Below are positions 27,624-59,520 of a DNA stretch of 64,000 bases, piece after piece (the stretch's first letter is position 1; each line of letters opens with the position of its first letter). The notes below the pieces were generated by a model. It was not told the DNA's origin. It saw only the letters and a list, made by a program, of their open reading frames with translations, and searched no databases. The translations under genes were made by a program, and so were the position numbers. Source of the DNA: Massilia alkalitolerans DSM 17462 (GTDB lineage Bacteria > Pseudomonadota > Gammaproteobacteria > Burkholderiales > Burkholderiaceae_D). Location of the stretch: the NCBI RefSeq assembly GCF_000427785.1, contig NZ_ATYR01000003.1, forward strand, positions 37,650-101,649, written 5' to 3'.

Positions 27624-27716
27624 ATGAACGCTCCCAACGAAATCAATGCCGCCGCCCTGAAGACCGGCGCGACGGAAAAAGTCACTCCCATGATGCAACG
27701 GCGTGTTCTCCTATGA
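27624..27716 (+). pseudogene. mutS: mutS 5' remnant cut by the prophage
   Basis: An ATG at 27624 opens a frame whose first 25 residues, ending TEKVTPMMQ, match the start of MutS, where TPMMQQYL is the conserved beginning of the mismatch-recognition domain. After MMQ the reading turns to RRVLL and stops at 27714-27716 instead of continuing QY(L/M)..YPDTLVFYRMGDFYELF. Base composition also drops here. The simplest explanation is integration of the prophage within codons 25-27 of mutS; the remaining gene should lie right of the window. The identification rests on a short but distinctive stretch. Confidence 0.7.
27690..27703. other. Probable left attachment junction (attL) inside mutS
   Basis: The MutS-like reading ends in CCCATGATGCAA and foreign sequence follows, so the crossover core probably lies around ATGATGCA. 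The matching attR is outside the window, so the core cannot be delimited. Confidence 0.45.
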
Positions 27717-27788
27717 AGAAATTCGTGTTTTGCTAAAACTTACGCCATAAGCTACGCCAGCAGCCACAGGTTTTATGTCGTGTAAGTG

Positions 27789-27815
27789 TTGCCTGACCTA
27801 AAGTATACGTATAAT
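27789..27815 (+). promoter_or_regulatory. Promoter of the two-gene moron
   Basis: TTGCCT (27789-27794) and a consensus TATAAT (27810-27815) are 15 bases apart (16 if GTTGCC is used), in AT-rich DNA, 27 bases before the first moron start codon. AGGA lies six bases before that ATG. Confidence 0.6.
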
Positions 27816-27841
27816 CGTGTCACTTTATTATCAGGACTGCT

Positions 27842-28891
27842 ATGTTGACCGACGTCAAAATTTGGCTGTACGAGTTTCCTAAGTGCGGGTACTTTACCTT
27901 TCGCGGCAATACACCTGCTTTGTTTGGTGGCATCTCCCAAACTTTTGACGCGCTCACTGCTTGGGCGCGCGGCAAGCAACTTGGGGAGACAGCGACGTTC
28001 TCGACCAAAGAGCCCGATGGAACAGTAGTCGGCGGCGCTTACTTTCTCGACATAGCCAAGCATACGAACGGCGATTTTCTCATCGGTGTCTGGAATCGCC
28101 TTCCGGGCAATAAGAACAACATCACATCAGTGGGGGTTGGTGACGTAGTAGGGAGCGCTTCGGCGGCCGAGACTGTCATCGATAGAAATAGAATCCCAGG
28201 TTTTGCAACGTATTTTTGGATCATGCCGGCAGAGCAACGCATTGCATGCCTTCGGCTGAAACATGAGACGCAGGGCCTTGATGCCTTTAAGAAGTACATG
28301 CTTTCGTTCCTCAAGAACATCAATCCGCAAAACGTGATTCAGGGGCCTCCTGGCCCAAATGGCGAGATCAACGTTGTAGGTTATCGCCCAGACACGACTA
28401 CTACCACACCGACTGGGGGCGCTTTTCCTAAACTTTCTGTAAAATCGATTGTGCTCTCCGGGGACATCACTTACCTTAGACACAACGCAGCCGCGATTGA
28501 CAAAGTGCTCAGCAAGACCACGTTGTCGTCCGAGTCTCCCGGAGATTTTCAACGCTGGCAAAAAGTGATGGACATCTCTCGGTTTCTGCGCAAACCACCT
28601 CCGCTACGCGAAGAGTCGTTGATCCGGATGGAGTTTCCGATGAGCTTTACCACCCAAGAGCTCGATGAGGCCATTGCCAGCTGGCAGGACCGGGAGGGAA
28701 ACAATGATGCCAGCGATCAAGATGATCTGGGTTTCCATTTGCGCACTGGTGAAACCAAATGGCTTAGCAAGAGTCAGGCTCGAATTGGGTATCAAATCGA
28801 CGTGATGTGGACCGACGCCGAGCTGGTCAACGTAACTACCCTGCTTTCGCAACTGCAGGTCTACCGCAGTGCAGTGCTTGCTCTAGGATGA
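27842..28891 (+). CDS. Prophage moron protein 1, unknown, candidate defence/exclusion gene
   Basis: A 349-residue soluble protein that I do not recognise. The N-terminal half (FPKCGYFTFRGNTPALFGGI, GGAYFLDIAKHTNGDFLIGVWNRLP, GFATYFWIMPAEQRIACLRLKHETQGLDAFKKYM) looks like a compact alpha/beta domain. A threonine-rich linker (about 185-195) leads to a second domain (KSIVLSGDITYLRHNAAAIDKVL ... VLALG). It has its own promoter, uses AT-richer codons than the host and the phage late genes, and is followed one base later by a four-helix membrane protein. The soluble-plus-membrane pair at a prophage edge resembles the RexA/RexB layout of lambda; no sequence relationship is claimed. Confidence 0.75.
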   Translation: MLTDVKIWLYEFPKCGYFTFRGNTPALFGGISQTFDALTAWARGKQLGETATFSTKEPDGTVVGGAYFLDIAKHTNGDFLIGVWNRLPGNKNNITSVGVGDVVGSASAAETVIDRNRIPGFATYFWIMPAEQRIACLRLKHETQGLDAFKKYMLSFLKNINPQNVIQGPPGPNGEINVVGYRPDTTTTTPTGGAFPKLSVKSIVLSGDITYLRHNAAAIDKVLSKTTLSSESPGDFQRWQKVMDISRFLRKPPPLREESLIRMEFPMSFTTQELDEAIASWQDREGNNDASDQDDLGFHLRTGETKWLSKSQARIGYQIDVMWTDAELVNVTTLLSQLQVYRSAVLALG

Positions 28892-28892
28892 T

Positions 28893-29402
28893 ATGAAATT
28901 TATGCGCTTTGGGATCGTCGTCGTAATAGCCTGGCTAGGCTATTACTTCGGCGCGCCCATAGCGCTTAAAGATCAGTGGCCGCTTTACGACGCGCTTCGG
29001 AATACGACATCGATCGTGTTCGGAATCATGGGCGCGTTGATTGCATTGGTCTACCCCGATGCCGTCAAAAATGCCTTACGTGGTGGGCAGCCGGCGCAAG
29101 CGGTCGATGGAGGGCTTGGGAAACTGATCACTCCTTGTGGTCACTCAGCATTGCTTCTGATCATGCTTGTCGTTCTCGCACCAGTTATCGCTTGGGTTGC
29201 GACCTTTGAGCCAGCTACGAGAGCGGCAGACATAACGACCCTTCAAAAGGTTTCGTTCTCACTATTCTGTGTGCTGTCTTATTGGCAGGTTGTAATTCTA
29301 CTGATGGTGCTCATCCCCTTTGATGAGATGTACTCGAAGGTGCACGATGACATCAGACGGGCTAGGTTGCGTCGCAATTTGCACAGTAACGGCCCTGGCT
29401 AA
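28893..29402 (+). CDS. Prophage moron protein 2, four-helix membrane protein
   Basis: A 169-residue inner-membrane protein with hydrophobic segments at about 7-22, 38-55, 86-105 and 123-142, and a basic cytoplasmic tail (DDIRRARLRRNLHSNGPG). No family recognised. The ATG is one base after the stop of the upstream gene and uses AGGA within its end, so the two are coupled and probably act together. Ion-channel-like effectors of abortive infection have this size and topology, but that role is only a hypothesis. Confidence 0.75.
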   Translation: MKFMRFGIVVVIAWLGYYFGAPIALKDQWPLYDALRNTTSIVFGIMGALIALVYPDAVKNALRGGQPAQAVDGGLGKLITPCGHSALLLIMLVVLAPVIAWVATFEPATRAADITTLQKVSFSLFCVLSYWQVVILLMVLIPFDEMYSKVHDDIRRARLRRNLHSNGPG

Positions 29403-29575
29403 TCGTTCGGACGTCGCTTACCGAAGAAACGACGTTAATGTCGTAAGCTTGGGAAGCCGTGCAGAGAATCTCATAACCATGCGGTTTTCGAACCCTTTCG
29501 CGCTCCACAAAATCCGCTGATCACCTCGCCTAAACGCTAGTATTCATGCGGCTCCTGTTCCCTTTGTGGAGCATT
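29403..29575. other. Short non-coding gap after the moron pair
   Basis: 173 bases between the plus-strand moron and the first minus-strand phage gene. No clear terminator, promoter or gene was seen. Confidence 0.4.
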
Positions 29576-29827
29576 TCAAGCGTTCGGCGGGAGCTTCGGG
29601 AACTCCCTTACGCACGGCTCGTCAGCCAAAGTTTTCCGGATCGACTCGAGCAGGCCTCCCTGCTGGCCAGGAAGAGTGCCAAGCATGCGCTGCAGCTGGT
29701 CAGCGTACAGGACGAGAGATCGCAGGCGCGCCACTTCCCACAGCACGGCTTTCATGTCTTCCGAGTCGAGATTGCGCGCCTGAATAGCTTCAAGGTCTGC
29801 GCGTGTCAGGGGCTTCTTGAATCGCAT
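29576..29827 (-). CDS. Small phage protein, unknown
   Basis: An 83-residue acidic/helical protein starting MRFKKPLTRADLEAIQARN and containing AVLWEVARLRSLVLYADQLQRML. The frame continues upstream to a GTG at 29905, but the ATG at 29827 fits the apparent N-terminus and avoids overlap with the divergent neighbour. No strong ribosome-binding sequence. Function unknown; small helical proteins like this are common at the ends of phage late operons. Confidence 0.55.
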   Translation of the reverse strand: MRFKKPLTRADLEAIQARNLDSEDMKAVLWEVARLRSLVLYADQLQRMLGTLPGQQGGLLESIRKTLADEPCVREFPKLPPNA

Positions 29828-29907
29828 CTGCCGAGTGTAGCACTGCTGAGCCAGGTCGCTGAATCCAGCCGAGTGGCATAATTCTGTGTCAGCCAGGAGC
29901 CCCACCC

Positions 29908-30267
29908 ATGTTCATCACACGCCGGCAGCACCCATCCATCGAGTTCATTCCCGCCGAAGGGCAGCAGGAACCACACCTGGTGCACTACTTCAGCGACCGG
30001 GGCGACCCGTTTAAGTCAGTGCTACCGCTGCTGGTGGAAGGTGCTGGGCAAGACGAAGAGCGTGTGTTCATGGTCGAGTCGCCCCTAAGCGAATTGGTCA
30101 GCTGGACGATCGAGCTCAACCGGCACCATGGCTTCCCCGATCGCGTGCTGATGGACGAGAAGCACCGAGCATTCTTCGAGGCGGTGAAGGCGTCGCTCTC
30201 AAGAGCAATTGCGAATATCGACGGGATCGAGTATGCCCGGCTGGATGAGCCGGATGAGGAAGGTTGA
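29908..30267 (+). CDS. Small phage protein, unknown
   Basis: A 119-residue protein (MFITRRQHPSIEFIPAEG ... LDEPDEEG), with mixed alpha/beta content and an acidic end. The ATG at 29908 is preceded by AGGAGCCCCACCC. It is divergent from the 83-residue gene and possibly expressed in the lysogen like the moron pair. Not recognised. Confidence 0.55.
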   Translation: MFITRRQHPSIEFIPAEGQQEPHLVHYFSDRGDPFKSVLPLLVEGAGQDEERVFMVESPLSELVSWTIELNRHHGFPDRVLMDEKHRAFFEAVKASLSRAIANIDGIEYARLDEPDEEG

Positions 30268-30310
30268 GCAGGATCAAGCCTGTGCTGTTGGTGGTTGGTA
30301 TGCTGGCCGG

Positions 30311-30547
30311 ATGATCAAGCGTACCGACCGCATGACTGCGTTCCACGTCGACCTGGCTGTCAATTTGGCCGGTTCGCATGGCGTTGCCGCAGGCGCTCGC
30401 GAGATGTTCCGGCTGGGCCTGCCGCTCGATCTAGCCCACCGAGTTCTGCTCAGGCCGCAGGAACGTCGGACTGATCGATCCGGGCCGCCTGCAGCGCGAC
30501 TAGATCAGCTTCAGCCGCCCGCAGCCGTGCCAGCTCCTGCGCGCTAA
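30311..30547 (+). CDS. Possible small protein overlapping the lysis operon end
   Basis: A 78-residue reading (MIKRTDRMTAFHVDLAVN) whose core GAREMFRLGLPLDLAHRVLLRPQERR resembles small betaproteobacterial proteins with a GVPLxVALRVL..P..RR pattern known to me from memory. Its last 98 bases run antisense to the 64-residue gene, so the C-terminus may not be natural. Weak candidate. Confidence 0.35.
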   Translation: MIKRTDRMTAFHVDLAVNLAGSHGVAAGAREMFRLGLPLDLAHRVLLRPQERRTDRSGPPAARLDQLQPPAAVPAPAR

Positions 30548-30644
30548 TCATCTGCAGCGGCGTCTCGTCTCCGGCGCTGCGGTGGATGGTGCACACATGG
30601 GTCACACCCTTGTCGGTGTAGGCGTGGAGCTCGAGCGTGCTCAT
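30450..30644 (-). CDS. Small phage protein after Rz
   Basis: A 64-residue protein (MSTLELHAYTDKGVTHVC ... LQAARIDQSDVPAA), a short beta segment followed by an alanine-rich helix. The ATG overlaps the Rz stop as ATGA, so it is the last gene of the lysis operon. Function unknown. Confidence 0.6.
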   Translation of the reverse strand: MSTLELHAYTDKGVTHVCTIHRSAGDETPLQMISAQELARLRAAEADLVALQAARIDQSDVPAA

Positions 30645-31144
30645 TTCGCGTTTACTTCCAGGCAGGCTTCGAAGCGCTCGACGACACGCTCATATCGCCG
30701 CACGAGTCCGCCAACGTCTGCGGCGATGCCGAGAAGATCAGCAGCAGTCTCTGGCACAATGCTCGGTCCTGTGCGGTCAGCCTGAGATCCGCCGGTAGCG
30801 GGTCGATCACCGGCCGGCGCGGCGGCTGGTACTGGCCCTGCTGGGCAGCGCAGCCGGTCATCGCCAGCGCGCATGCGACGCTGAGCAGCTTCAAGGTTCG
30901 TTGCATGTTCCTGCTCCTTTCGTAAGGCGGTGGTGTCTTGCTCCAGCAGGCGGGTGCGGAGACCTGACTCGATCGCCAGGTTGGCGAGGACCGCGGCGTC
31001 GCGCGCTTCCTTGCCGTCGGCCACGGCAGCGGCGTAGCCGGCGCGGTACTGGGCGGAGCCGTAGCTCCGCACGGCCAGCGCCCCTCCGAACAGCAGGAGC
31101 ACCAGCAGCACAGCGCCGACGAGCAGGCGCTCAAGCGAGTTCAT
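30641..31144 (-). CDS. Rz-like i-spanin
   Basis: A 167-residue inner-membrane spanin: an N-terminal membrane helix (about 7-25, LLVGAVLLVLLLFGGALAV) and a long periplasmic helix rich in A, E, R and Q (about 45-95), ending in a helical C-terminus. It links with the Rz1 lipoprotein to fuse inner and outer membranes at the last step of lysis. The ATG overlaps the lysin stop (ATGA). The Rz1 gene lies wholly inside it in another frame, which strongly supports the call. Confidence 0.88.
   Translation of the reverse strand: MNSLERLLVGAVLLVLLLFGGALAVRSYGSAQYRAGYAAAVADGKEARDAAVLANLAIESGLRTRLLEQDTTALRKEQEHATNLEAAQRRMRAGDDRLRCPAGPVPAAAPAGDRPATGGSQADRTGPSIVPETAADLLGIAADVGGLVRRYERVVERFEACLEVNAK
30652..30906 (-). 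CDS. Rz1-like o-spanin lipoprotein, embedded in Rz
   Basis: An 84-residue outer-membrane lipoprotein read in an alternative frame within the Rz gene. It starts MQRTLKLLSVACALAMTGC, with the lipobox cysteine at residue 19, followed by a proline-rich segment (QYQPPRRPVIDPLPADLRL) typical of Rz1. The embedded arrangement is the same as in lambda. Together with Rz it completes the spanin complex. Confidence 0.87.
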   Translation of the reverse strand: MQRTLKLLSVACALAMTGCAAQQGQYQPPRRPVIDPLPADLRLTAQDRALCQRLLLIFSASPQTLADSCGDMSVSSSASKPAWK

Positions 31145-31605
31145 TTCGCGTCCGGTGGAAGCTGATCGTAGAACTGCAGGTTGCGCGCCCGGATGGTGGC
31201 CTGCAGCTTCTTCGCGTAGTCGGGATCGGTTGCGTACCCGGCCTTCTGCAAAGCAGTCGCCCAGCCCATGCCGGTCGTTTCCTTGAAGCAGTCCCGATAG
31301 CGCGGGTTCGCCAGCAGGAAACGGCCGTGGTCGACCATGCTTTCGGCGTAGCTGGCATATGCTCGGAACTTGTCGGTGAGGCTGACGCTCTTCCCGCCGA
31401 TGTGCTCCGTGGTGCGGAAAGCTACGGTCAGACCGGTCCAGCTCTTGTCCGCTTTGATGCCGAAGAGGTTGTTACCGAGCGCGCGCGAACCCCATGCGGA
31501 TTCGAGCGCGGCCTGCGCCAGGATAATCGATGCCGGGATGCCGGTCTTACGCTGGCACGCCTGGGCCGCGCCGGCCAGCATGCCGATGAAAGCGCTCGGC
31601 GGCAT
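31141..31605 (-). CDS. Phage lysin, glucosaminidase (GH73) domain
   Basis: A 154-residue single-domain lysin of the mannosyl-glycoprotein endo-beta-N-acetylglucosaminidase/GH73 type, as in FlgJ. ASIILAQAALESAWGSRALGNNLFGIKAD contains the catalytic glutamate (ALESAWG). FRAYASYAESMVDHGRFLL and FKETTGMGWATALQKAGYATDPDYAKKL complete the fold. No signal peptide, so export relies on the holin. It lies between holin and Rz with overlapping stop/start codons on both sides. Confidence 0.9.
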   Translation of the reverse strand: MPPSAFIGMLAGAAQACQRKTGIPASIILAQAALESAWGSRALGNNLFGIKADKSWTGLTVAFRTTEHIGGKSVSLTDKFRAYASYAESMVDHGRFLLANPRYRDCFKETTGMGWATALQKAGYATDPDYAKKLQATIRARNLQFYDQLPPDAK

Positions 31606-31985
31606 CAGATCACCTCCTTCACGTCCTTGACGATCTCGGCCAGGTCGGCGTCCTTATGCTTGTCCAGGTACTTGAACAGCGCGCGGACCACCAACCAGCC
31701 CGGCAGGCCACATGCGAAAGCCAGGCCAAGAATGCCCATCAGACCAAAGACATCATCGACCCAGTGCTCCAGTCCCAAGGCTTTGACGACCGCCGCACCG
31801 CCACAGATGGAACCGACTACGGTGCAGATCAGTGAGATCCGCCATTCCTCATCGGTCTTCGGTTTGGTTTTGGCGTACACGATGTATGCAGCCAGACCGG
31901 CGCCAATACCACCGATGCCCACCAGGCCACCAAGCAGCTTCCAGCCAGCGACGCCTGCCGCAGTGCCTGAAATGGGTTCGCTCAT
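31605..31985 (-). CDS. Putative holin
   Basis: A 126-residue membrane protein with three hydrophobic segments (about 13-35, 48-65, 83-105) and a charged C-terminal tail (KYLDKHKDADLAEIVKDVKEVI). Size, topology and position immediately before the lysin fit a holin. MSEPISGTAAGVAGWKLLGG is a start familiar from other phage holins. An ATG five codons earlier (32000) is an alternative. A copy of the GTCTCA-N13-TGAGAC dyad lies 60-85 bases upstream and may control the lysis genes. Confidence 0.8.
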   Translation of the reverse strand: MSEPISGTAAGVAGWKLLGGLVGIGGIGAGLAAYIVYAKTKPKTDEEWRISLICTVVGSICGGAAVVKALGLEHWVDDVFGLMGILGLAFACGLPGWLVVRALFKYLDKHKDADLAEIVKDVKEVI

Positions 31986-32044
31986 TAAGTTTTCTTTCAT
32001 AAGGTGATTGGTTCCTGCGAAGTCCACAGTGTCCCCGTCACCTT

Positions 32045-32069
32045 GTCTCATTTCTAGGAAAGTTGAGAC
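32045..32069. promoter_or_regulatory. Late-region dyad copy 1 (lysis)
   Basis: GTCTCA-N13-TGAGAC with spacer TTTCTAGGAAAGT. It lies in the 131-base gap between the amidase-fold gene and the holin. Two further copies with near-identical spacers are at 44889 and 49713. Candidate binding site for the phage late activator. Confidence 0.65.
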
Positions 32070-32116
32070 TATTTCACTGGGCCGTATTGAAGCGGGTGGA
32101 CGTAAAAAACCCGCTA

Positions 32117-32548
32117 TCAAGCGGGTTGGCGGAAAAGCGTGATTGCACTCGCGAGCGTGCTCGGGTCGTACCGCCAGGGATCAGGGAAGCCAAGCGCTGC
32201 AGCGACAGCCTCGGAGCAGAACCAGCGCTTGCGGCTGTGCGGAATGGCGGCCAGCACGAATTGCAGATTGCCCACGACGTCGTACTTGGCGCCGCGGTGC
32301 GCTACGAACCAGTCGACCGCAGTCGCCTCAAGATGCGCCGGCAGATCGACCAAGTCCCACTTCGCCGGATCGAAGTCGATCAGCTTGGAGCGCACGCCAC
32401 CGTCTTCGAACGATGCCGACCAGGCGCGGCCGGTCGACACCACCAGCTCAACGTGCGAGTACGGCGAGCTGGTCCACCACCGCACCAAGCGGTTGTAGAT
32501 GCCGGCGACACCTGGGCGCGTGCCCTTATAGAAGGCGGCGCGCAGCAT
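32117..32548 (-). CDS. Permuted NlpC/P60-like (papain-fold) phage protein
   Basis: A 143-residue protein with YSHVELVVS (histidine) in the N-terminal half and RKRWFCSEAVAAALG (cysteine) in the C-terminal half, the order expected for circularly permuted NlpC/P60-type hydrolases. A peptidoglycan hydrolase acting during DNA entry, or a tail-tip assembly protease, are possible roles. Start TGATG-overlaps the upstream gene. Distal tail region, before the lysis block. Confidence 0.65.
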   Translation of the reverse strand: MLRAAFYKGTRPGVAGIYNRLVRWWTSSPYSHVELVVSTGRAWSASFEDGGVRSKLIDFDPAKWDLVDLPAHLEATAVDWFVAHRGAKYDVVGNLQFVLAAIPHSRKRWFCSEAVAAALGFPDPWRYDPSTLASAITLFRQPA

Positions 32549-33039
32549 CACAGTCCCGCAGCAGTGATGAACAGCTGATCGAGCTTGGCGGCATCGAGCC
32601 CCAGCGCCTCGCCGATCTGGATCACCAGCGGGCGAGTGCGCACGAACTCGAGCGAGTCTTCCCACTCGATTTGGGCCATGCGGCGCTGAACCGGGTCGGG
32701 AATGGCGTCGATGGCGGGCTGAACGTTATCGAGCAGTTCTGCCATGAGCAGCGCCTGTCGCGCCTGCCGGCGGGTGACGGTCTGCGGCACGATTATTACT
32801 TGCTCGCCCGGCAGCGGTGGCGGCAGCAGCTCCAGGCTGTCGCGCGCCTCGTTGGCGCGGTAGTTGACCCAGGCCGGAGCGAGGGTCTCGTCGATGACGA
32901 TCATGCGGTCGGCGTGTCCGTCCGGCGGCACTTGCAGGTAGCAGCCGTCGAGCGCGCCTTCAGGGGTGAAGGTAACGTAGCGCAGCGGTTGCGGCTCGGC
33001 TGGCAGTTCTGGAGTGATTGGGGTGTCGAGGTTATCCAT
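32548..33039 (-). CDS. Phage tail-region protein, fibre-assembly type
   Basis: A 163-residue acidic protein. Its C-terminal half (TRRQARQALLMAELLDNVQPAIDAI, RRMAQIEWEDSLEFVRTRPLVIQIGEALGLDAAKLDQLF) resembles small proteins that follow tail-fibre genes, where they may act as assembly chaperones. Located directly after the fibre-like gene. Function inferred from position. Confidence 0.6.
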   Translation of the reverse strand: MDNLDTPITPELPAEPQPLRYVTFTPEGALDGCYLQVPPDGHADRMIVIDETLAPAWVNYRANEARDSLELLPPPLPGEQVIIVPQTVTRRQARQALLMAELLDNVQPAIDAIPDPVQRRMAQIEWEDSLEFVRTRPLVIQIGEALGLDAAKLDQLFITAAGL

Positions 33040-34028
33040 TAGGCGACTTTCGTGATGTTCAACTCGGTATAGGTCTCGTTCACGCCACTCACGCTCACCG
33101 CATTGCCCAGGCCGGTGCTGGTGGTAGCCTGACCCGTGTAATGTCGGACGGAGAAGGTCTTAGCTGTCGTGAGCACGATGCGGCCCATGAACGCGGACGA
33201 GCTCTGTACGCCGCCGGCAGGGGATGCGTACTCCGAACTCCCAACCAGGGCAGGGGTGCCATCCGTGACGTTGTAGAGCGACGCGCGGTGATAGCCCACC
33301 GCATGCGCCGGGGCGCGGCCCTGGATTTCGTAGGTTCCAGGCTGAATCGTGACTTGGTTGCCCGACAGCGTCACGCCGGCAGTGTTGTAATCGGTCGTGT
33401 TCAGAGTTCGGGTCTGCTCACCCGTCACATTCGTGCCGCCGCTTACTCCGGAGGATTTGCGGTCGCTAAACTTGGCAGACGGATTGATCGCTGCAGCCCC
33501 GGTGTCGCCCTTGTCTCCGGTGCGCTGGAGATGAAGTATCACAGGATCGTTCTCTGCAAACAGCCCATTCTCCAGCACGTAGCTAACAGCGAAGTAGCCG
33601 TACTTGCCGCCGGCATCCTCTGTGTAGGAAGTGATGTTGTAAATCGCAAACGTAGACGGATCGCTTTGCTTGACGATCCTCAGCGTGCCTTTGACGGCAC
33701 TCGAAGACGTGGAGATCGCGTTGAGGATCGCTTTGACCGAAACGCCCTGAAGGTTCTTCGTGTCTATGAGCAGGACCGTCGCCTCGTTGGAGAATGCGAG
33801 GTGCCCGCCCGATGCCGTACCGACAGCGCCGCCGATGGCAGCGGCCGGACTGTTGAAGAGGTAAGGTAGCGCATACGCCCCTCCCGCTGCGATGGAGTTG
33901 AGGTTGGCGACGAGGCCGACCAGTTCACTGACGAAGTTGATCAGCCAGGTGATGAAAGCGTCGACGCGCTGCGCGAACGTGGCGCGGTCCCCGCGCTGGG
34001 GCGCCGCCGGCGGTGGTGTAAGTGCCAT
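33039..34028 (-). CDS. Putative tail fibre / receptor-binding protein
   Basis: A 329-residue protein. The N-terminus has a helical segment (FITWLINFVSELVGLVANLNSIA) likely to form a trimeric coiled coil. A short collagen-like GDKGDTGAAA run (about 175) separates it from a beta-rich C-terminal domain (TVTIQPGTYEIQGRAPAH, GRIVLTTAKTFSVRHYTGQ) of C1q/TNF-like appearance. This is the organisation of many short fibres. It is the last large structural gene before the small distal genes and probably determines host binding. Confidence 0.7.
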   Translation of the reverse strand: MALTPPPAAPQRGDRATFAQRVDAFITWLINFVSELVGLVANLNSIAAGGAYALPYLFNSPAAAIGGAVGTASGGHLAFSNEATVLLIDTKNLQGVSVKAILNAISTSSSAVKGTLRIVKQSDPSTFAIYNITSYTEDAGGKYGYFAVSYVLENGLFAENDPVILHLQRTGDKGDTGAAAINPSAKFSDRKSSGVSGGTNVTGEQTRTLNTTDYNTAGVTLSGNQVTIQPGTYEIQGRAPAHAVGYHRASLYNVTDGTPALVGSSEYASPAGGVQSSSAFMGRIVLTTAKTFSVRHYTGQATTSTGLGNAVSVSGVNETYTELNITKVA

Positions 34029-34948
34029 TAGATTAATCCTTGAACGTTAAGAGAAAGTTGGCAGCGCCCCGGCCCGTCGGCGGAAATCTCGGCGCTGCCA
34101 AGGCCGAAGACGCGCAGGAAGCCGTACTCCTGCAACCCGGATGCGATCCATACCGCAGGTACATCGAGGACGCTGCGAATGATGTCTGTGACAGCGTTCG
34201 CCTCCGACACATCGAGGTGCGCGGACGCCGACATGTCCATCGCGGTCTTGCGGCGCTTGATGGACGTCCTCCCGAAGTCGTCGGTCTTGATGTAGCTGTA
34301 GGTCTTCGGCTTGGCCTTGGCGCCGTACTGAGTTCTGCCCAGCGACCGGAGATCGCCGATGGCGAGCACTCCGCACTTGACCGCGCCGCCGGCAGAGGAC
34401 AGCGTCAGGGTCAGCTCCGCGCTGTTGTATTGCTCGATGTCGCTGGCGAGGAAGTCGGTCAGCGGCTTGAAGCGGTCGAAGAAATACTCGTCATAGTCGG
34501 CCGGCTGCGAACCCTCCAGCTGCCCGGTGTAGCTGTAGATCACAACCCCGCTGGGCGCATCCTTGACGGTGATCGAGATCGACCCGGCATCCACCCCGGC
34601 CAAATACAGGCCGGAGAAGCTGCCCGGGCGCAGCACGACGGTCAGCGGCGAGGCAGCGACCGTTTGGGTGCTCACCTCTTCGTCGAACATTGCCCACCGG
34701 TTCGTGGGGCCAATATCGAGCCAGTACACGGTCGTGCCAGCACGGTTCGTCACATCGTCCGGGTTCTTCCCGGTATGCGGCGTCATGCACTGGTAGATGC
34801 GGTGCGTGGCAGGGCTGATGCAGAAGGCGTCCTTCACGTACGCTGTGCCAGCAGCCCATGCGGCGTAGTCGGCCTCCGGCACCGTGCTGCTGATGAGAGT
34901 CGTGTTATCGACCTCCACCGGCACCAAAACACTCAACGAAGGCGTCAT
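34028..34948 (-). CDS. Phage tail protein, unknown
   Basis: A 306-residue protein with a carbohydrate-binding-like N-terminal part (AAGTAYVKDAFCISPATHRIYQCM) and a beta-rich middle (GSISITVKDAPSGVVIYSY). The C-terminal segment (RTQYGAKAKPKTYSYIKTDDFGRTSIKRRKTA) is seen in distal tail proteins. Its stop and start overlap the neighbours. Probably a distal tail or baseplate-hub component. Confidence 0.65.
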   Translation of the reverse strand: MTPSLSVLVPVEVDNTTLISSTVPEADYAAWAAGTAYVKDAFCISPATHRIYQCMTPHTGKNPDDVTNRAGTTVYWLDIGPTNRWAMFDEEVSTQTVAASPLTVVLRPGSFSGLYLAGVDAGSISITVKDAPSGVVIYSYTGQLEGSQPADYDEYFFDRFKPLTDFLASDIEQYNSAELTLTLSSAGGAVKCGVLAIGDLRSLGRTQYGAKAKPKTYSYIKTDDFGRTSIKRRKTAMDMSASAHLDVSEANAVTDIIRSVLDVPAVWIASGLQEYGFLRVFGLGSAEISADGPGRCQLSLNVQGLI

Positions 34949-37900
34949 TCCACGACCTCCACCTGTACCGGTCCGCCGCCATTGGTTGCTTTGTCGAACA
35001 TTTCTTTATGCTCCCCAGTGTTGTCGGCAATCTTGGACAGGACCGCCCGAATCTGCCGGTTCTCCTCGCGAACCGCACGCAGTTCTGCGACGATGGCGGC
35101 GCTGTTGTCAGACGGCCTCATCAGGCCGGACAGAAGATTGCTTGTCTGTCCAGCATTCCAGATCCGCGACGGACCAGTCGCCTCCAGTTCCGGACCGTTC
35201 TCACCGACGATCCGGAGACCGCCACCGAACATGCCGCCCGAAGCGAAGCCCGGGATGCCCTTGTACTCGGCGCCCTCCATGATCATCTTGCGCACCTGGT
35301 CGAGCGACAGGCCACCGGCTACCGCGTTCTGCCAGTAGTCGAGGCCTGCGCTGTCAGCCGGGCGGTCCAGCAGTTCGCGGTACAGGTTGGCGATGCTGCC
35401 GCCCGCGCTTGCGACCGGATCCGCCTTTGCTGCACCAAGCGCACCTTGGAAGCCGCTGATCGCCTGGGCTAGCGTGATCACCGAGTAGTCGATCCCCTTC
35501 AGCGCGTTGACCTGCTGCTGCGCGCTGTCGAGGATGCCGTCCAATGCCTTGAGCGACTTTTCCTCCACGCTCAGGGCGTCATCGGTGAGGCCAGCGAGGG
35601 CCGCGATGTCGTTCTGCGTCGAGTAGAAGTCGCGCAGGTAGTCCTGCTGGGTCGCGAACATGGACGAAGCGCCCCTGCTCAGGACCGACAGGGCACCTTT
35701 CAGGCTATCGGCATCCGGCAGCACGCCGCCGGCTTTGGCGATCGCCAGCGCCGCCTGAATCTGGGCGCGCGCATTCTGGCGGTCTTCCACCTCGCGACCG
35801 GCGACGCTCATGCTGTCCAGCGTGCCCCGCAAGGCCGACGACAGCGCGCGGTGGGCGTTGGTCGTCTCCTGCAAGAGCGTCTTCTCGCGGCCCACCACGG
35901 TTTGCAGGGCCGAGAAGGCGCTGTCCACGCCGGACAGAAGGTTGGCTGCGCGGTCCTTCGTGGCCTGCGTCAGGTTGCGTTGGGCCTCGACCTGTGCTTC
36001 CAGCGCCGCCTTCGAGTCCTTGAGCGCGTTAATCTGGTCAAACAGAGGGCGGTTGCTTTCGTGCAGCGCGTCCCCCTGCTTCTCCAGCAGCTGCGCCGAC
36101 GTCATCGTCATCTCATCCAGCTGCTGCTGGAGATCCTTGCGTTCGTCATAGATGTACTGCTCGGCATCGGCGATCTGCTTGAGGGCCGGGGCGATCTGGC
36201 TGAGGACGGCGAAGGCCTTGGCGCCGGCATCGGTAGCCGGGTCGAGCGCGACCAGGTAGTCGCGGAACATCCTGGTCGCGTCCTCGCCCGACGCCTTTAG
36301 GCCGTACTGGCTCAGGATCGGCTGCACCCGCGCCTTCAGCGCTTCCGCCTGCTCCTGTTCGGTGAAGAAGTCCCGCAGGAACTGCTCGCTGTTCTGCACG
36401 AACTTCTGCAGGCCGCCGGACAGGTCGAGGAGGTGCTGCCGCGCGGCGATCGAGTCGAGGCCGATCGCGCCGAAGGTCATCCCCATCGACTGCATGACGA
36501 CGTCGACCGACTGGTAGCCCTGGGCGATGCGCACCAGGGTTTCCATGTAGCCTTCGCCAACTTGCTGGAACTGCTCCAGGCCGCCGACCGCGAACTGGGC
36601 CATGTCGTCGCCGAGCTTCGAGAACACCGCCTGCAGGGTCTTCTCGATCTCGTCGGCCTTCATGTCCTTGAAGCTGATCTTGCCGATGTCGACGACGAAC
36701 CCGTCCAACTTCTGGGCGAAGGCATCGGTCGGCAGGCCCATAGCGATACCGGCCTCGCGGATCCCGTCGGACAGCGACAGCAGGACCTTCGTGATCTGGC
36801 GATTGCCGTCGGCGCCCAGGCCTTCCAGCTGGGTGCTCATCTTGTCGCTACGGAACCAGCCGCCGTCCTTCTTGATGTCGGCATAACTCATGGCGTTCAG
36901 GCCGCCGTTGGCGATGGTGGCCAGCGAGGCCTTGTCGAGCGTGAAGCCGCTGTCCTCCAGCGTCTTCTTGCCGCCGAAGATCGCGCCCATGATCTTGCCA
37001 GTGGCCTTGCTCAGCCAGCCGCCCGTAAGCTTATCCAGGACCATGCCGACCATGCCGCCCTGAAGGAAGGTCGCCTTGTCGGAGCTCCAGAATTCCTCGG
37101 CACTGCCCTGCCCCAGGCCCTTGACGGGCGCCTGGCCGGTGATGTTGGTGTCGCGCACGACAAGCGCCGAGAATGAGCCGATATTGCTTTTGATCTCGGT
37201 GAGCGCGTTCAGCATGCCCATGCTGATGGCAAGGCCCTGGTAGGTGTTGTCCTCGACCCGTTCCAGCGAACGCGCGATCGATTCCGACTTGGCGCCGGCG
37301 TCGCCGAAGACGCTGCCGGTGCCCTGCGACTCCTGACGCGACTGCGACAGGCTGACGCTCGATCCGCCGACACCGCCGAACATCTTCGCGCCGACCGCCA
37401 CGACCGCCGCCATGGTGGCTGCGCCGGCCGCCAGGTTCAGCGGGAACGGTAGCGACGCGATCGCCTTGACGACGGCTGTGATGCCCCAGGCGCTGGCCTC
37501 GGTTGCAGCCAGGCCGGTCGAGGCGGCCGTAGTGGTGGCTTCGCCGGCCAGCTTGGTGGCATTCAGAGTGGTATGGGCCGCCACTTCCGCTTCCTTGAAG
37601 AACAGCTTCTTCGCGAGCGTCTCGGCGGACATGGCCAGCTCATAGGCGCGGAAAGCCTTCTCGGTGGTCTCCAGCGCGCGGTACCCCCTGCTGCCCTCGG
37701 AGAAGAATCCCTTGGCGGCGGCGGTCATGTCGCCATAGGCGGTGACGCGGCTGCGCAGCTCGTCGCGCGAGATTGCGGCCGAGGCGGCGGCGTAGCCCTT
37801 CGAGTCGGACGCGAACCTGGTCGCAGCATCCTTGCGGGCCTTGTCGACCTCGGCCTGACGGATGGCATAGGCGTCGAGGTTGCTGACGAGCTGGGTCAGC

Positions 37901-39771
37901 GAGTCGCCAGCCGTGCCGAACGCGCCCTTGAGCGCCTCGCCGAAGGTCTGGGCCTTGGTCGGGTCGAGGAACTTGTCCAGATCCTCGCCGGCCTTCTTTA
38001 CCACTTCGCTGGTGTCGACCGAAACCAGCGCCGCTGCGCTGCGCTTCTTGGCAGCAATCAGCTTTTCCAGATGCTCGATTTCTTCGCGATCCAACTTAAG
38101 GGACGCACTCTGGGCTAATTGGTCCTCAAGACGCGCAAGCTCAACCTGTTCAATTGCTCCCTTGGTCATCCCGAACGTGCGGGCCAGCACCTCGTTGCGT
38201 GTTGCTTCTTCTGTCGCATTGTCCAGCACTTTCGCCATCGCATCAGACTTTTCCTTGCGGGCCTTGTCGATCTTCTCTTGAGCTTCCACCGCGCGTTTGT
38301 TCGACTCGATCACCGCGTTGCTAGCCTCCAGCTCCTGCAGCAGGCCGTCCACTACGGCGCGCTGCTTGGAAGTAAGGCTGAGCTTACCTGCACCGATCTG
38401 CTCGTCGAGGCGGATCTGCTCCTGCTGCGCAGCGGTCGCCGCCTTGCCGGTGTTGGCCTCGATCTGGGACTGCTTGATTTTCGCTTTGATCGATTCAGTA
38501 AGGGCGCGATAGGCCTCGGCTGCTTTCTCAGCCTCTTCGGCGTCGCTGCTCTTTCCGGAACTATAGTTTGCAGGCGGCTTATCAGGGTCGGGGGCGCTTG
38601 GACCTTTCGCAGCACCTTTACGATCAGCAAAGCGCGCCATTACGGCTTGCTCAACTAAATTTGCAGGTTCGTTCCAGAGGCGAACGTACTCAGCATTTGC
38701 TTCCTCAAGAACCTTGTTGCGCGCCGCCAGAGCAGATTTTATGCCTTTAAGCGGGTCTTCTCCCTTGGCGTATTTAAGGGCAATGTTGGCAGGATTCTTA
38801 AGTTGCGCTAACTCAACTGCGGTGGTCGCTAAATACTCGACATCGGCGCCAATCACTTTAAGGCTGCTCCACACTGCAGATGCAGTGCGAGGAATCAACG
38901 CCAAAACATCAACAACGCGCGCAGCTCCCATCGCCATTGCTTCTGCCCAGCCAGTGTCCTCGCTAGCAGCCAACTTGCTCTGAGCTTTCATCACATCCGA
39001 TATGCCGCCTGCGAGATCAGTCATTGCAGGAAGGCCGGACACAACGATGCCTTCGAAAAGCTCGCCCGATCGCACGCGCAACATGCCCCACTGGTCCTGC
39101 AGGGCAGTGGCCTGGGCAACGGCTTCTTTCGACGTCGCGGAGAAGTCGTCGACTGATTCCGCCACGTCGCCCAGGTACGGCAGCAGTTCCCGTCCAGATT
39201 TTCCGAAAAGGTCGTTAGCAAGCGCAGCTTTGCCAGCTCCATCCTTGTAGCCCTGAAGACGCTTAGCGATGTCCTCCATCAGCTTATCAGGCTCGCGCAG
39301 CTTGCCCGCACTGTCCTTTGCCGAGATTCCGAGGAATGCGAGAGCCCTCCTGGTTTTACTAGATTCTTCATCCGCTCCGGACAAGCCCTTGTTCAGGTTC
39401 GCCAACGCGGTGCCGACCGTGCCAAAATCAGCGCCGAATACGGCCGCTACTTTCTGCAGCCGCGACAAGCCCTCGACGCTCGCGCCAGTTCTCTGGGCCA
39501 TGTCGTCCAGATCACCGAACTTGTCGAGCGTAGCGCCGATCTTGTCCGAGAGCATGTTCAGAGAGACCCCCGCAATGGTGAACGATGCGATATCGCCGAT
39601 GCGCGAGTGGAGTCCGCTGATGCGATCGTTCAGGGCGCCAACCTGGCCGGACAGGCCCGCCAGGGATTCCGCATTCATACGCCGGAAGGCCTCGGCGACG
39701 CTGTCAATATTGCGACGACTTTCCGGCGCTCCGTCGACGCCCATCGTGATTGTTGCGCGTGTACCCGTCAT
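34945..39771 (-). CDS. Tape measure protein
   Basis: A 1608-residue protein that sets tail length. The N-terminal part is helical (TGTRATITMGVDGAPESRRNIDSVAEAFRRM), with a GDLDDMAQRTGASVEGLSRL segment typical of tape measures, long alanine/lysine-rich coiled coils (about 430-620), and a hydrophobic stretch (about 740-820). Near the C-terminus (about 1495-1540) ANLYRELLDRPADSAGLDYWQNAVAGG matches the DUF4214 type repeat, and GFASGGMFGGGLRIVGENGPELEATGPSRI is the usual tape-measure end. Follows the tail-chaperone frameshift pair, as in lambda. Confidence 0.93.
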   Translation of the reverse strand: MTGTRATITMGVDGAPESRRNIDSVAEAFRRMNAESLAGLSGQVGALNDRISGLHSRIGDIASFTIAGVSLNMLSDKIGATLDKFGDLDDMAQRTGASVEGLSRLQKVAAVFGADFGTVGTALANLNKGLSGADEESSKTRRALAFLGISAKDSAGKLREPDKLMEDIAKRLQGYKDGAGKAALANDLFGKSGRELLPYLGDVAESVDDFSATSKEAVAQATALQDQWGMLRVRSGELFEGIVVSGLPAMTDLAGGISDVMKAQSKLAASEDTGWAEAMAMGAARVVDVLALIPRTASAVWSSLKVIGADVEYLATTAVELAQLKNPANIALKYAKGEDPLKGIKSALAARNKVLEEANAEYVRLWNEPANLVEQAVMARFADRKGAAKGPSAPDPDKPPANYSSGKSSDAEEAEKAAEAYRALTESIKAKIKQSQIEANTGKAATAAQQEQIRLDEQIGAGKLSLTSKQRAVVDGLLQELEASNAVIESNKRAVEAQEKIDKARKEKSDAMAKVLDNATEEATRNEVLARTFGMTKGAIEQVELARLEDQLAQSASLKLDREEIEHLEKLIAAKKRSAAALVSVDTSEVVKKAGEDLDKFLDPTKAQTFGEALKGAFGTAGDSLTQLVSNLDAYAIRQAEVDKARKDAATRFASDSKGYAAASAAISRDELRSRVTAYGDMTAAAKGFFSEGSRGYRALETTEKAFRAYELAMSAETLAKKLFFKEAEVAAHTTLNATKLAGEATTTAASTGLAATEASAWGITAVVKAIASLPFPLNLAAGAATMAAVVAVGAKMFGGVGGSSVSLSQSRQESQGTGSVFGDAGAKSESIARSLERVEDNTYQGLAISMGMLNALTEIKSNIGSFSALVVRDTNITGQAPVKGLGQGSAEEFWSSDKATFLQGGMVGMVLDKLTGGWLSKATGKIMGAIFGGKKTLEDSGFTLDKASLATIANGGLNAMSYADIKKDGGWFRSDKMSTQLEGLGADGNRQITKVLLSLSDGIREAGIAMGLPTDAFAQKLDGFVVDIGKISFKDMKADEIEKTLQAVFSKLGDDMAQFAVGGLEQFQQVGEGYMETLVRIAQGYQSVDVVMQSMGMTFGAIGLDSIAARQHLLDLSGGLQKFVQNSEQFLRDFFTEQEQAEALKARVQPILSQYGLKASGEDATRMFRDYLVALDPATDAGAKAFAVLSQIAPALKQIADAEQYIYDERKDLQQQLDEMTMTSAQLLEKQGDALHESNRPLFDQINALKDSKAALEAQVEAQRNLTQATKDRAANLLSGVDSAFSALQTVVGREKTLLQETTNAHRALSSALRGTLDSMSVAGREVEDRQNARAQIQAALAIAKAGGVLPDADSLKGALSVLSRGASSMFATQQDYLRDFYSTQNDIAALAGLTDDALSVEEKSLKALDGILDSAQQQVNALKGIDYSVITLAQAISGFQGALGAAKADPVASAGGSIANLYRELLDRPADSAGLDYWQNAVAGGLSLDQVRKMIMEGAEYKGIPGFASGGMFGGGLRIVGENGPELEATGPSRIWNAGQTSNLLSGLMRPSDNSAAIVAELRAVREENRQIRAVLSKIADNTGEHKEMFDKATNGGGPVQVEVVE

Positions 39772-39777
39772 CGCCGC

Positions 39778-40469
39778 CTAACCTTTCCGTTTCTCCGCCC
39801 ACTCTTCCAGGCAAGCTTGTTCCATCAACTGCACCGAGGCAAACAGCTCGGTGCGCTTCTTGCGCGCGATGTCACGCATCCGTATGCAGGCTTCAACCCC
39901 GGCATAGTTGAGGCCGACCGCACCGGCCATACCCACGTTCCACTGGGTCTGCAAGCCAAGCCAAAGCTCGAAAGCTTCTTCGTTTTCGGGCCAAAGCCAA
40001 TACTCCTGCTGCTCCAGCACCGGTCCAACGGCATACAGGCCGAGGGCGGCGAGCGCCTCATTGACGTGCCGCTCGGCCTTGCCCGCCTCGCTGCTGAAGC
40101 GAAGGTCGCCGCGCGCCATGAGGCGCACGGCCTTGATCAGTTTTTTGCCGCGACCGCGATCTGCTTCATGTAGCTGGTGAAGCACAGCATGGGCATGCCG
40201 GCGGTGCTCAGGAGGCCATTCAGACCATCCTCGCTAAATGTCACGGCCGCACCGTTCTCGTCCTTCACTTGCTCCCAGCCTTCGGCGACGCCGCGCAGAA
40301 AGCCCTTGACGGAGCCATGCTTGTCGTTCTGTTCGGCTTCGACTTCTTCCTGGGTAAGGCGCTTGCAGTGCAGGATGAAGTCGAACTCGACCGGCTTGCC
40401 GTCCTCGCCCGGCAGGGTGCCCTTGACGCGAACCGGGAGCTTGTTCAGTTTTTTCAGTACGAATGCCAT
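39778..40469 (-). CDS. Tail assembly chaperone long form (G-T like, by -1 frameshift)
   Basis: About 230 residues if ribosomes slip at A-AAA-AAC at the end of the short form and continue LIKAVRLMARGDLRF in the -1 frame. The T-like part (about 120 residues) contains LGLYAVGPVLEQQEYWLWPENEEAFELWLGLQTQW, a DUF1799-like tail-assembly segment. It lacks a good independent start with ribosome-binding sequence at the frame head. In lambda the G-T fusion bridges the tape measure and tail tube proteins, and the gene order here (tube, G, T, tape measure) is identical. Confidence 0.75.
40137..40469 (-). CDS. Tail assembly chaperone short form (G-like)
   Basis: A 110-residue protein (MAFVLKKLNKLPVRVKGTLP ... 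KQIAVAAKN). The beta-rich N-terminal half and helical rest fit phage tail assembly chaperones of the G type, which coat the tape measure before tail tube polymerisation. Its last codons GCA AAA AAC then TGA place a slippery heptamer exactly in phase. Confidence 0.8.
   Translation of the reverse strand: MAFVLKKLNKLPVRVKGTLPGEDGKPVEFDFILHCKRLTQEEVEAEQNDKHGSVKGFLRGVAEGWEQVKDENGAAVTFSEDGLNGLLSTAGMPMLCFTSYMKQIAVAAKN
40140..40146 (-). promoter_or_regulatory. -1 frameshift slippery heptamer A AAA AAC
   Basis: On the minus strand A-AAA-AAC is read in phase as (gc)A AAA AAC, directly before the TGA of the G-like gene. Slipping one base back joins it to the T-like frame. This matches the X-XXY-YYZ rule and the conserved use of frameshifting in tail chaperone genes. 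Confidence 0.8.
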
Positions 40470-40504
40470 GTGGCGATTCCTTGCAAATTGAGTTGGTGGA
40501 TGGG

Positions 40505-41467
40505 TTATTGGGTGACGATGCGCCACTCGTCGTTACCGCTGACTGGGACCAGGCGCACGTCGTAGCCGATCAGGCGCTTGCCGTTGAGCTCGGACTTCTT
40601 CGGGTTGGTCAGCTGGGCGGCCGGGGCGAACACGATGATCTTGTTGCCGGCCACGGTGCCGATGGTCAGGGCCAGGCTCTGGGTCGTATTCGCCTTGACG
40701 GCCGCCATCAGCGCGACTTCCTGCTCGGCGGTCAGTTCGAGTTCGATCGTGGCGGTCGACTCGCGGTCGGTGATGTCCACGGTCTCGGTGCCGAGCATCG
40801 GCGTGAAGTTGACGACATTACCGAAGTTGAGCTCCAGTCCGGTGCTGTTGTAGACCGTACCGCCCGTCAGGGCGCCGGCCGCATAGGTCGCACCGAGCGT
40901 GATGTCCACCACGTTGGCCTTGGTCATGGCGACCGGCTTCTTCCACGGCGTGAAGGTCGGAGCCACATTCGGCACCGCGGCGATGCCGCCATCCAGGCCG
41001 GTCCATTCGAAGCGCAGCACAGGGCGGTCGCCGACCTTGGCCGACAGCGTGCAGTTACCCATCGACGCCAGCAGCTTGTGCAGAACGCCGTCGTCGTAGT
41101 AGTACTGGGTCAGCGACTTCAGGCTGGTCGACACCGGCTGGTATTCCACGCGCGCCGGGGTCGCCAGCACACCTTCAGCCACGGCGCAGCCCTGCAGCAG
41201 CTGGCCCCAGGCTGGCGCAGTGCCGGCGGTGCCGGAGCCTGCCAGCTCGACGGTGTAGGAAATCTTGACGCTGCCAGGGCCGACCAGCTGCTCGCTGCCT
41301 CCGAAGTAGCCGCGGACCAGGTTGCGGCCAATGGCCTGGGATTCGAGCGGCGTGATGCTGACGTCGGAGACCAGCACCGCGTTGGCGGCACCGGTTGGCG
41401 CTGCGTCCACGCCGGTAGTCGTTTCAACCTTGGCGGTGACGATCGTGTTCTTGATGCTACGTGGCAT
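40505..41467 (-). CDS. Major tail tube protein
   Basis: A 320-residue beta-rich protein. The N-terminus NTIVTAKVETTTGVDAAPTGAANAVLVSDVSITPLE and the C-terminal region (SLALTIGTVAGNKIIVFAPAAQL) are typical of phage tail tube subunits. It forms the non-contractile tube. CCAGGAGTAATCC before the ATG is a strong ribosome-binding site fitting a highly expressed structural gene. Followed by the chaperone pair. Confidence 0.85.
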   Translation of the reverse strand: MPRSIKNTIVTAKVETTTGVDAAPTGAANAVLVSDVSITPLESQAIGRNLVRGYFGGSEQLVGPGSVKISYTVELAGSGTAGTAPAWGQLLQGCAVAEGVLATPARVEYQPVSTSLKSLTQYYYDDGVLHKLLASMGNCTLSAKVGDRPVLRFEWTGLDGGIAAVPNVAPTFTPWKKPVAMTKANVVDITLGATYAAGALTGGTVYNSTGLELNFGNVVNFTPMLGTETVDITDRESTATIELELTAEQEVALMAAVKANTTQSLALTIGTVAGNKIIVFAPAAQLTNPKKSELNGKRLIGYDVRLVPVSGNDEWRIVTQ

Positions 41468-41470
41468 GGA

Positions 41471-41659
41471 TTACTCCTGGTCGGTGGCCGAGGTACCGGC
41501 CTGTTCGTTGCCTGCGTCGGCCGGGCCGGCTTCGTCAGGGGCTTCGGCAGCGACCGGATCATTCGAGATCCAGGCCCACTGCGCTTCGTCGAAGGTCCAC
41601 GAGCCACCGCCAGGCATGGGCGGGATCTCGCGGGTGTCGCTGTTTTTTTCGATTTGCAT
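41471..41659 (-). CDS. Small phage protein, unknown
   Basis: A 62-residue acidic protein (MQIEKNSDTREIPPMPGGG, ending AGTSATDQE), with SWTFDEAQWAWISND in the middle. The frame extends upstream over the neighbouring gene, but the ATG at 41659 fits the intergenic position. Between the tail terminator-like and tail tube genes; function unknown. Confidence 0.55.
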   Translation of the reverse strand: MQIEKNSDTREIPPMPGGGSWTFDEAQWAWISNDPVAAEAPDEAGPADAGNEQAGTSATDQE

Positions 41660-41660
41660 G

Positions 41661-42098
41661 TCAGCTGATGAGTGCGTTTTCGGTTCGGTGCTGGGCGACG
41701 TAGGTAAGACGCACCCATCCAGTTTTCTTGCCTTCGCTCGTGTTCTCGGCCTCGATGCCGGCAATGACCAGGTCATCGAGCATGCCGCCCAGCGTAGGGT
41801 CTGCCGCCAGGCGCTCGTACACGCGCTCAAGGAGCGGATCGACCACAACGTCGCCGGTCACGCCGACTGCACCGCTGCGCGCATAGCAGTCGACGGTGAG
41901 CCGGGTCGACCAGTCGATCGGCGCGCCCGTGATCGTTCCTTGCTGCGGGAGCGCCTGCTCCCACTGCACGCTGATCGACTCGTCTTCCTGTTCCGGCACG
42001 ACGTGGGCGCGGGCGCGGTGGATCGACTTGCAGACCGCCGGGCTGGTCGACAGCGCCGAGATGACCGCGCTCACCGCTTTCGAGAAGGCGGTGCTCAC
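41661..42098 (-). CDS. Putative tail terminator / minor tail protein
   Basis: A 145-residue protein containing SIHRARAHVVPEQEDESISVQW, then DWSTRLTVDCYARSGAVG and DPLLERVYERLAADPTLGG, similar in layout to tail completion proteins located between head-tail joining and tube genes. A GTG at 42098 overlapping the upstream stop (GTGA) is preferred to the GTG at 42107. Assigned mainly by position. Confidence 0.6.
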   Translation of the reverse strand: MSTAFSKAVSAVISALSTSPAVCKSIHRARAHVVPEQEDESISVQWEQALPQQGTITGAPIDWSTRLTVDCYARSGAVGVTGDVVVDPLLERVYERLAADPTLGGMLDDLVIAGIEAENTSEGKKTGWVRLTYVAQHRTENALIS

Positions 42099-42391
42099 TG
42101 CACGCACTCCACGGTGAGCATGGTCAGGCCGGTGCCGTCGGGTGCAGTCGCGACGATTGCATACGGGACGCCGGCGATGTGGACCAACTGGTTGATCGGC
42201 TCGGCCATTACCGCGCTCGAGGCGACGGTGAGGGTCGGACTGGTGTCGGCCGCGCCGCCGCCGAGGTTCGCCACCGACGAAGGACGCTCGAAGATGCCCG
42301 GTACCGTAGCGCCCGCGATTACCACCCGGACATTGGCCAGGTGGTTCAGCACGTTGGCATTCGCCGCGGCTTCGAGGTTGGCGAAGAACAT
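42095..42391 (-). CDS. Head-tail joining protein (Phage_attach / FII-like)
   Basis: A 98-residue protein with VVIAGATVPGIFERP, ADTSPTLTV and EPINQLVHIAGVPYAIVATAPDGTGLTMLTVEC, a pattern seen in lambda FII-like head-tail attachment proteins. It lies between the head decoration gene and the tail completion gene, as expected. Confidence 0.7.
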   Translation of the reverse strand: MFFANLEAAANANVLNHLANVRVVIAGATVPGIFERPSSVANLGGGAADTSPTLTVASSAVMAEPINQLVHIAGVPYAIVATAPDGTGLTMLTVECVQ

Positions 42392-42402
42392 GGCGGGACG
42401 GG

Positions 42403-42735
42403 TTAGCGGATCGCGCCGTCGAGCAGGACGGTGGCGGTGGTGTCGCTGCCGCCCTTGGCCACGGCCAGGGCGCCGACCAGGGTGTTGTTGGTGGCGGTCT
42501 TGGTCAGCTTGCGGGCGGTGTCGTCCCAGTACATCTTGTCGCCCGCGGCGCCCGTGTCTGCGGTGACGGCGGCCAGCGCGTACACGCCGGTGCGGTCGAT
42601 CTCGACCGGGCTACCCTGCGCGGCATCGCCCGCGGCGACGCCGAACAGCGCGCCGACCTTGACGCCCTGGCCGCTCGTCACGGCATACGGTGCGATGACG
42701 GCGATGACATCGCCCTTCTGGATCTTGTTTTTCAT
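42403..42735 (-). CDS. DUF2190 capsid cement-like protein
   Basis: A 110-residue protein (IQKGDVIAVIAPYAVTSGQGVKVGALFGVAAGDAAQG, then GAAGDKMYWDDTARKLTKT and VGALAVAKGG), the pattern of DUF2190 proteins that decorate phage capsids. AGGAAGC precedes the ATG. Adjacent to the capsid gene. Confidence 0.8.
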   Translation of the reverse strand: MKNKIQKGDVIAVIAPYAVTSGQGVKVGALFGVAAGDAAQGSPVEIDRTGVYALAAVTADTGAAGDKMYWDDTARKLTKTATNNTLVGALAVAKGGSDTTATVLLDGAIR

Positions 42736-42785
42736 GCGAGTTGCTTCCTATCGTTCGTTGGACGGTTGATCCTGTAGGCCGCGGC

Positions 42786-44882: not shown

Positions 44883-44888
44883 TGCGCT

Positions 44889-44913
44889 GTCTCAATTCTC
44901 GGAAAACTGAGAC
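44889..44913. promoter_or_regulatory. Late-region dyad copy 2 (capsid)
   Basis: GTCTCA-N13-TGAGAC, extendable to CTGTCTCA/TGAGACAG, spacer ATTCTCGGAAAAC. It fills the gap between the 61-residue gene and the protease-capsid gene. Same sequence class as copies at 32045 and 49713. Confidence 0.65.
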
Positions 44914-44926
44914 AGTTTTTACATGC

Positions 44927-45112
44927 CTACTTTTCGAGGTCTACAGCTCGATACTTGCCATCCACGATCGTGAGGCTTTTGGCTGGGTAGCCAGGAGCAG
45001 GTTCAACAACTGAATTTTCGGCGCCCATGGTTGGCAGCTCGGGCGGCTGCTGCACTGTGGCCTCCCTAGCCAACAGCGCGCGCACTGACGGGTTGTCGGC
45101 AATGCGGATCAT
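44927..45112 (-). CDS. Small phage protein, unknown
   Basis: A 61-residue protein (MIRIADNPSVRALLAREA ... KYRAVDLEK). Starts within the stop of the upstream gene (TGATG). Not recognised. Confidence 0.55.
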   Translation of the reverse strand: MIRIADNPSVRALLAREATVQQPPELPTMGAENSVVEPAPGYPAKSLTIVDGKYRAVDLEK

Positions 45113-47940: not shown

Positions 47941-47988
47941 GGTTTTCTCTTTGGTTTATTCGAACACGAATTTGCGGACCTGCACGAA

Positions 47989-49688: not shown

Positions 49689-49712
49689 GCCGCCAAGGGT
49701 AGCGACTGCCCT

Positions 49713-49780: not shown

Positions 49781-49826
49781 GGGGTATACTCAAATTCCGG
49801 ATTAATTTGTGGAATGGAGGTGTGCG

Positions 49827-59512: not shown

Positions 59513-59520
59513 AGCGACCA

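Follow-up and report, generated by a model that had tools for sequence, protein, structure and literature searches.

A tailed prophage in mutS of Massilia alkalitolerans supplies a replacement start and leaves a full-length mutS reading frame

The prophage and the divided mutS gene

The window, a stretch of 64,000 nucleotides (G000:C13:37650-101649; window position = C13 position minus 37649), holds the 5' end of a host mutS gene and, from the conserved TPMMQ motif of that gene onwards, the greater part of a tailed prophage that continues beyond the window on the same contig. The features are given below, in window positions unless preceded by C13.

27624..27716, + strand: 5' end of the host mutS, cut off from the rest of the gene; 22 codons of host origin and the core, after which phage sequence runs to a stop; the joined flanks match the empty mutS sites of congeners
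27690..27697, + strand: attL core ATGATGCA, 8 bp, codons 23-25 (ATG ATG CA), MMQ; recurs at C13:107100 and 107283
27690..64000, no strand: prophage, left 36.3 kb in the window, continuing to C13:107107 (PHROGs, Pfam)
27739..27757, + strand: two putative integrase arm-type sites at the left end, CTTACGC and GCTACGC
27842..29402, + strand: cargo pair PDC-M18A and PDC-M18B, a candidate defence pair adjoining attL (PADLOC 1.6e-94 and 4.2e-49)
C13:105313-105537, + strand: AlpA-type excisionase/regulator (Pfam PF05930, 1.6e-10)
C13:105540-106844, - strand: tyrosine integrase, 434 aa, divergent from mutS (Pfam PF13356 and PF00589)
C13:107031-107107, + strand: mutS start provided by the phage, 23 codons followed by the core; first copy, belonging to the attP junction and separated from the integrase start by 186 nt
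C13:107195: single N between the attP junction and the attR copy (contig sequence)
C13:107214-109880, + strand: rebuilt mutS, 888 codons, with the attR core at C13:107283

An ATG at 27624 opens MNAPNEINAAALKTGATEKVTPMMQ, which is followed by RRVLL and a TGA at 27714-27716, and reading this stretch bears out a preliminary description according to which the frame resembles MutS through TPMMQ and then turns into foreign sequence and stops. That description placed the prophage in codons 25-27 of mutS; the integration point stands, but the core covers codons 23-25, and because codon 25 still encodes Q, the protein departs from MutS at codon 26 rather than 25. Beyond position 64000, where the same description expected it, the rest of mutS was found at C13:107214-109880 (Pfam; window-equivalent 69565-72231), past the prophage right end, about 42 kb downstream and outside the window, together with a second copy of ATGATGCA.

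With both cores, the prophage measures 41,769 nt. Its genes, assigned by PHROGs and Pfam, include those for an endolysin, tape measure, head/protease, portal, terminase gpA, primase, tail fibre and a CII-like protein, and thus structural, packaging, lysis and integration functions are all present, as befits a temperate tailed phage. The motif [CG][CT]TACGC occurs 23 times in the 41,769 nt, with 2 copies within 160 nt of the left end, 4 within 260 nt of the right end and 17 elsewhere; the copies at the prophage ends are likely integrase arm sites. Close to the terminase gene, an ISL3-type transposase with a C-terminal HNH domain (50516-51901) lies on the strand opposite its neighbours.

The rebuilt gene, its empty site and the attP junction

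In the lysogen, mutS reads MNLAEQMPLDQPLTDSGKSKVTPMMQQYLRIK... as one uninterrupted open reading frame, with a stop codon immediately upstream of its start and with five MutS Pfam domains, MutS I to V. The phage leader comprises 23 codons including the start codon, ends in KVTP ahead of the core, and is fused in frame to the mutS body; the V and P codons next to the core are synonymous between phage (GTT, CCT) and host (GTC, CCC). The arrangement is that of mutS-integrated elements: the TPMMQ motif is the insertion point, the host start lies upstream of the element, and the element supplies an in-frame start codon for mutS. At the level of the reading frame, mutS is rebuilt, not broken, by a prophage that brings a replacement start. 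An intact mutS elsewhere, which the preliminary description had treated as a possible objection to its reading, was considered as a second copy backing up the first and rejected, the other MutS_V match (on contig C20) lying in an open reading frame of 531 aa, too short for mutS. This second frame (L002) has hydrophobic stretches by eye and is not a mutS.

Joining the flanks in silico (200 nt left and 300 nt right) gives a sequence that encodes MNAPNEINAAALKTGATEKVTPMMQQYLRIKADYPTML in frame. It is 94% identical to the empty mutS site of the congener G296 over 430 positions across the join, with 3 gap positions, every one upstream of the start codon, and the empty sites of the five congeners tried align across the join at 91 to 94%. 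Excision, modelled as these joined flanks, is therefore predicted to leave the host mutS frame whole and without a scar. The opposite outcome, in which excision rather than integration damages mutS, has been shown for Vibrio splendidus 12B01, where a 2-bp deletion resulted (accessible text of PMC5296598). Here attL, attP and attR share one common 8-bp core and the joined flanks, in frame, match the empty sites of congeners, which makes excision damage extremely unlikely at this locus. An assembly chimera was also rejected, as congeners have empty mutS sites and other genomes have occupied ones.

The attR end is known from an assembly join with one N. Ahead of attR the contig runs through the prophage right end, the core, left-end sequence (95 nt with the core), the N, and the right end once more; both repeated stretches at this attP-N-attR arrangement are exactly 95 nt. 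A k of 95 is a common setting of de Bruijn assemblers, and the layout is the pattern that such an assembler leaves when an attP edge exists. In a relative of the same genus, G193, a phage contig shares an overlap of exactly 95 nt with the mutS contig and is closed by a self-overlap of 38 nt. The repeats point to circles or tandem copies in the sequenced DNA, either of which accounts for them. Tandem prophages as the sole source of the attP junction, with no excised circles, are a possibility that we consider somewhat unlikely; it concerns the junction alone and not the restart of mutS. Tandem copies yield an identical assembly graph, and in another genome, G195, two integrases of identical sequence lie 36,756 bp from each other at mutS (L187, L188, L226, L227), likely in tandem prophages, alongside a separate contig of 36,844 bp whose ends overlap by 88 nt. 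Against this, nothing in G000 separates a tandem from a circle, and the closed phage contig in G193 is compatible with both.

Relatives at the mutS site and selection on mutS

Searching 392 family genomes for the integrase (E 1e-20) returned 29 with a match, our own included: 21 have mutS divergent from it in the locus, three (G193, G195 and G379) have a mutS stub on the element end, and five have neither. Two of the 21 are weak: L024 has a fragment of an integrase next to a start of the host type, and L033 has an identity of 29%. Matches at class level came from 9 of 369 genomes (own included), and the 8 others, all outside the family, comprise six with mutS in the locus, one with only a TPMM string and one with neither. 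Within these family and class-level genomes, the integrase is thus kin to others beside mutS. Judged from sequence, these observations confirm the mutS site as a genuine site-specific integration point of a prophage; this is more than chance, because the 95-nt left-end repeat lies in the attP junction and related integrases sit at mutS in other genomes.

Over a wider collection of relative loci, some genomes of which are counted twice, mutS is divergent from the integrase in 72 of 174, while 46 of the 174 have less than 150 nt upstream and cannot be judged. Of the 64 loci in the genome_contigs set, mutS is present in 35, a stub in 4 and neither in 25, so mutS is not the only site used by integrases of the wider family. 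For the viral_contigs set, the best 80 of 137 loci, counted by hand, include 16 with mutS, 13 with a stub, 46 too short to judge and 5 with neither. In the Acidovorax phage Aval, the stub MQEKTEPNQQLAGIPISEHTPMM adjoins the integrase; no stub was seen in the first 400 nt of Burkholderia phage KS9. An integrase tree (74 rows, of which 8 were dropped for stops or a length under 380 aa and 66 kept) needs 4 changes between the mutS and other labels, against 20.9 in shuffles, a result obtained before the bootstrap had settled and one that does not imply a single origin. Side observations at the site include G379 (L186, L225), where about 12.7 kb lie between the element stub and mutS, suggesting that elements accrete there, and G286 (L024, L185), where a mutS whose start is of the host type has an integrase fragment upstream of it.

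The ends of these elements are consistent with a supplied start. An in-frame [TSA]PMM is present in 62 distinct ends, two of which (L067, L068) belong to loci in the other class. The mutS frame stays open over 20 or more codons in 59 of them, and the two remaining frames do so in 20 and 24; a possible start codon is present in all 62, and it is ATG in 53. Because these ends are related to one another and were chosen by their PMM motif, the open frame is support and not proof. The mutS frame could be followed to its stop in 43 of the 46 relative loci checked, at least 4 genomes being counted twice, while one runs off and two are without mutS.

Six mutS pairs were compared for dN/dS, with body and head taken apart. 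Across the pairs the body is under purifying selection, with dN/dS from 0.04 to 0.29. In G256 versus G315, body dN is 0.014 and dS 0.350, and the 30 head codons contain no amino-acid changes. Selection on the leader is not general, because the other five pairs score higher for the body (dN/dS 0.06 to 0.29) and range from 0.17 to 0.86 for the head. The G256 integrase is matched in two pieces, with stops; that of G315 was flagged for one TGA, but it cannot be called broken, because the sole stop within the stretch that matched is the final codon. Purifying selection on the mutS of relatives fits its expression, and the whole mutS in the 43 loci readable to the stop suggests that elements may be selected for keeping host mismatch repair.

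These data bear directly on the claim, made in the preliminary description, that the prophage inactivates mutS and leaves the lysogen with no intact mismatch-repair gene, as a mutator cured by excision, in effect a mutation-rate switch. The host start is indeed severed from the gene body, a promoter scan upstream of the phage start gave no match, and SpyCI elements in mutL behave in this way (accessible text of PMC3430984). Neither part of the claim is supported, given an 888-codon in-frame mutS with all five MutS domains in the lysogen and a joined empty site that is also in frame; together with the full-length frames of the relatives and the purifying selection on their mutS bodies, this leaves us regarding a mutator switch as very unlikely.

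A restarted mutS and its precedents

Our preferred reading, to which we assign a probability of roughly 0.9, is that a temperate tailed phage restarts mutS by integrating at a conserved core, fusing its own start and leader in frame, and providing a phage-side promoter. The tyrosine integrase would use the conserved ATGATGCA (MMQ) core in mutS codons 23-25, and integration would place the phage right-end start and its 23-codon leader in frame with the mutS body. In the lysogen, mutS would be driven by a promoter located either in the 186-nt gap that separates the divergent integrase from the phage start or within the integrase gene, so that mismatch repair may be kept, under phage instead of host regulatory DNA. 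By restarting its target, a phage could exploit a highly conserved site with the host not disabled.

The scan for sigma-70-like promoters in the integrase-mutS interval, where such a scan is weak, found 0 against 0.6 expected in shuffles, and with so few matches expected, the empty result says little. By eye, no obvious Shine-Dalgarno sequence precedes the phage start, and the last 170 nt of 20 hand-picked ends (of 65 distinct ones) contain the core and short repeats, with no clear -35/-10 pair. Because the scan gave no match, we infer the transcription of mutS in the lysogen. That the integrase-mutS interval might further couple MutS output to the state of the prophage, lysogeny tuning mutation rate or recombination barriers through the amount of MutS, is a speculative extension that we consider doubtful.

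This kind of element has been known since 2017, and the prophage described here is an additional member. The accessible text of Chu et al. 2017 (PMC5296598) describes elements integrated at the HTPMMQQ motif of mutS in hundreds of Beta- and Gammaproteobacteria, which supply a promoter and start; some are prophages, as in Burkholderia multivorans CF2. In V. splendidus 12B01 mutS was disrupted by excision, and in the three other strains where it was sequenced it stayed intact; a switched regulation of mutS was raised as an idea and, for non-scarring elements, left for further study. Our element is like these in its target gene, its TPMMQ motif and its element-supplied start and upstream region; it differs in being a 41.8-kb prophage in Massilia, and no excision scar is predicted for it, unlike the element of V. 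splendidus 12B01. A literature search on HTPMMQQ found PMC5296598 alone, and one for a Massilia prophage in mutS found no description, most subscription journals being outside the coverage of both.

Other systems are more distant. The parallel to SpyCI of Streptococcus pyogenes drawn in the preliminary description holds insofar as a phage-like element occupies the 5' end of a mismatch-repair gene; however, SpyCI sit in mutL and most carriers studied are mutators, whereas the target here is mutS, rebuilt in frame, and PMC5296598 is the closer precedent. According to the accessible text of PMC3430984, strain Manfredo is an exception in which a promoter inside a defective int rescues expression. 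IMEVchUSA3 in dusA, with a promoter shown by lacZ fusion, and the ICE SXT in prfC, as cited in the same partly accessible source (PMC8409611), differ in their targets and in being mobilizable or conjugative elements rather than a phage, and the promoter here is one that we infer. The Pseudomonas prophages described in the accessible text of PMC2647930 lie between mutS and cinA, not inside mutS.

On the doubtful reading that MutS output is coupled to the prophage, G343 and G256, whose integrase matches contain stops, would have taken over a phage leader as a permanent mutS start. Our analysis corrects the tempting reading that a prophage in mutS breaks the gene and makes the lysogen a mutator, and it adds a complete prophage to the known class of mutS-restarting elements. 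It also offers natural material for asking whether element DNA alters mutS expression, a question raised in the accessible text of PMC5296598.
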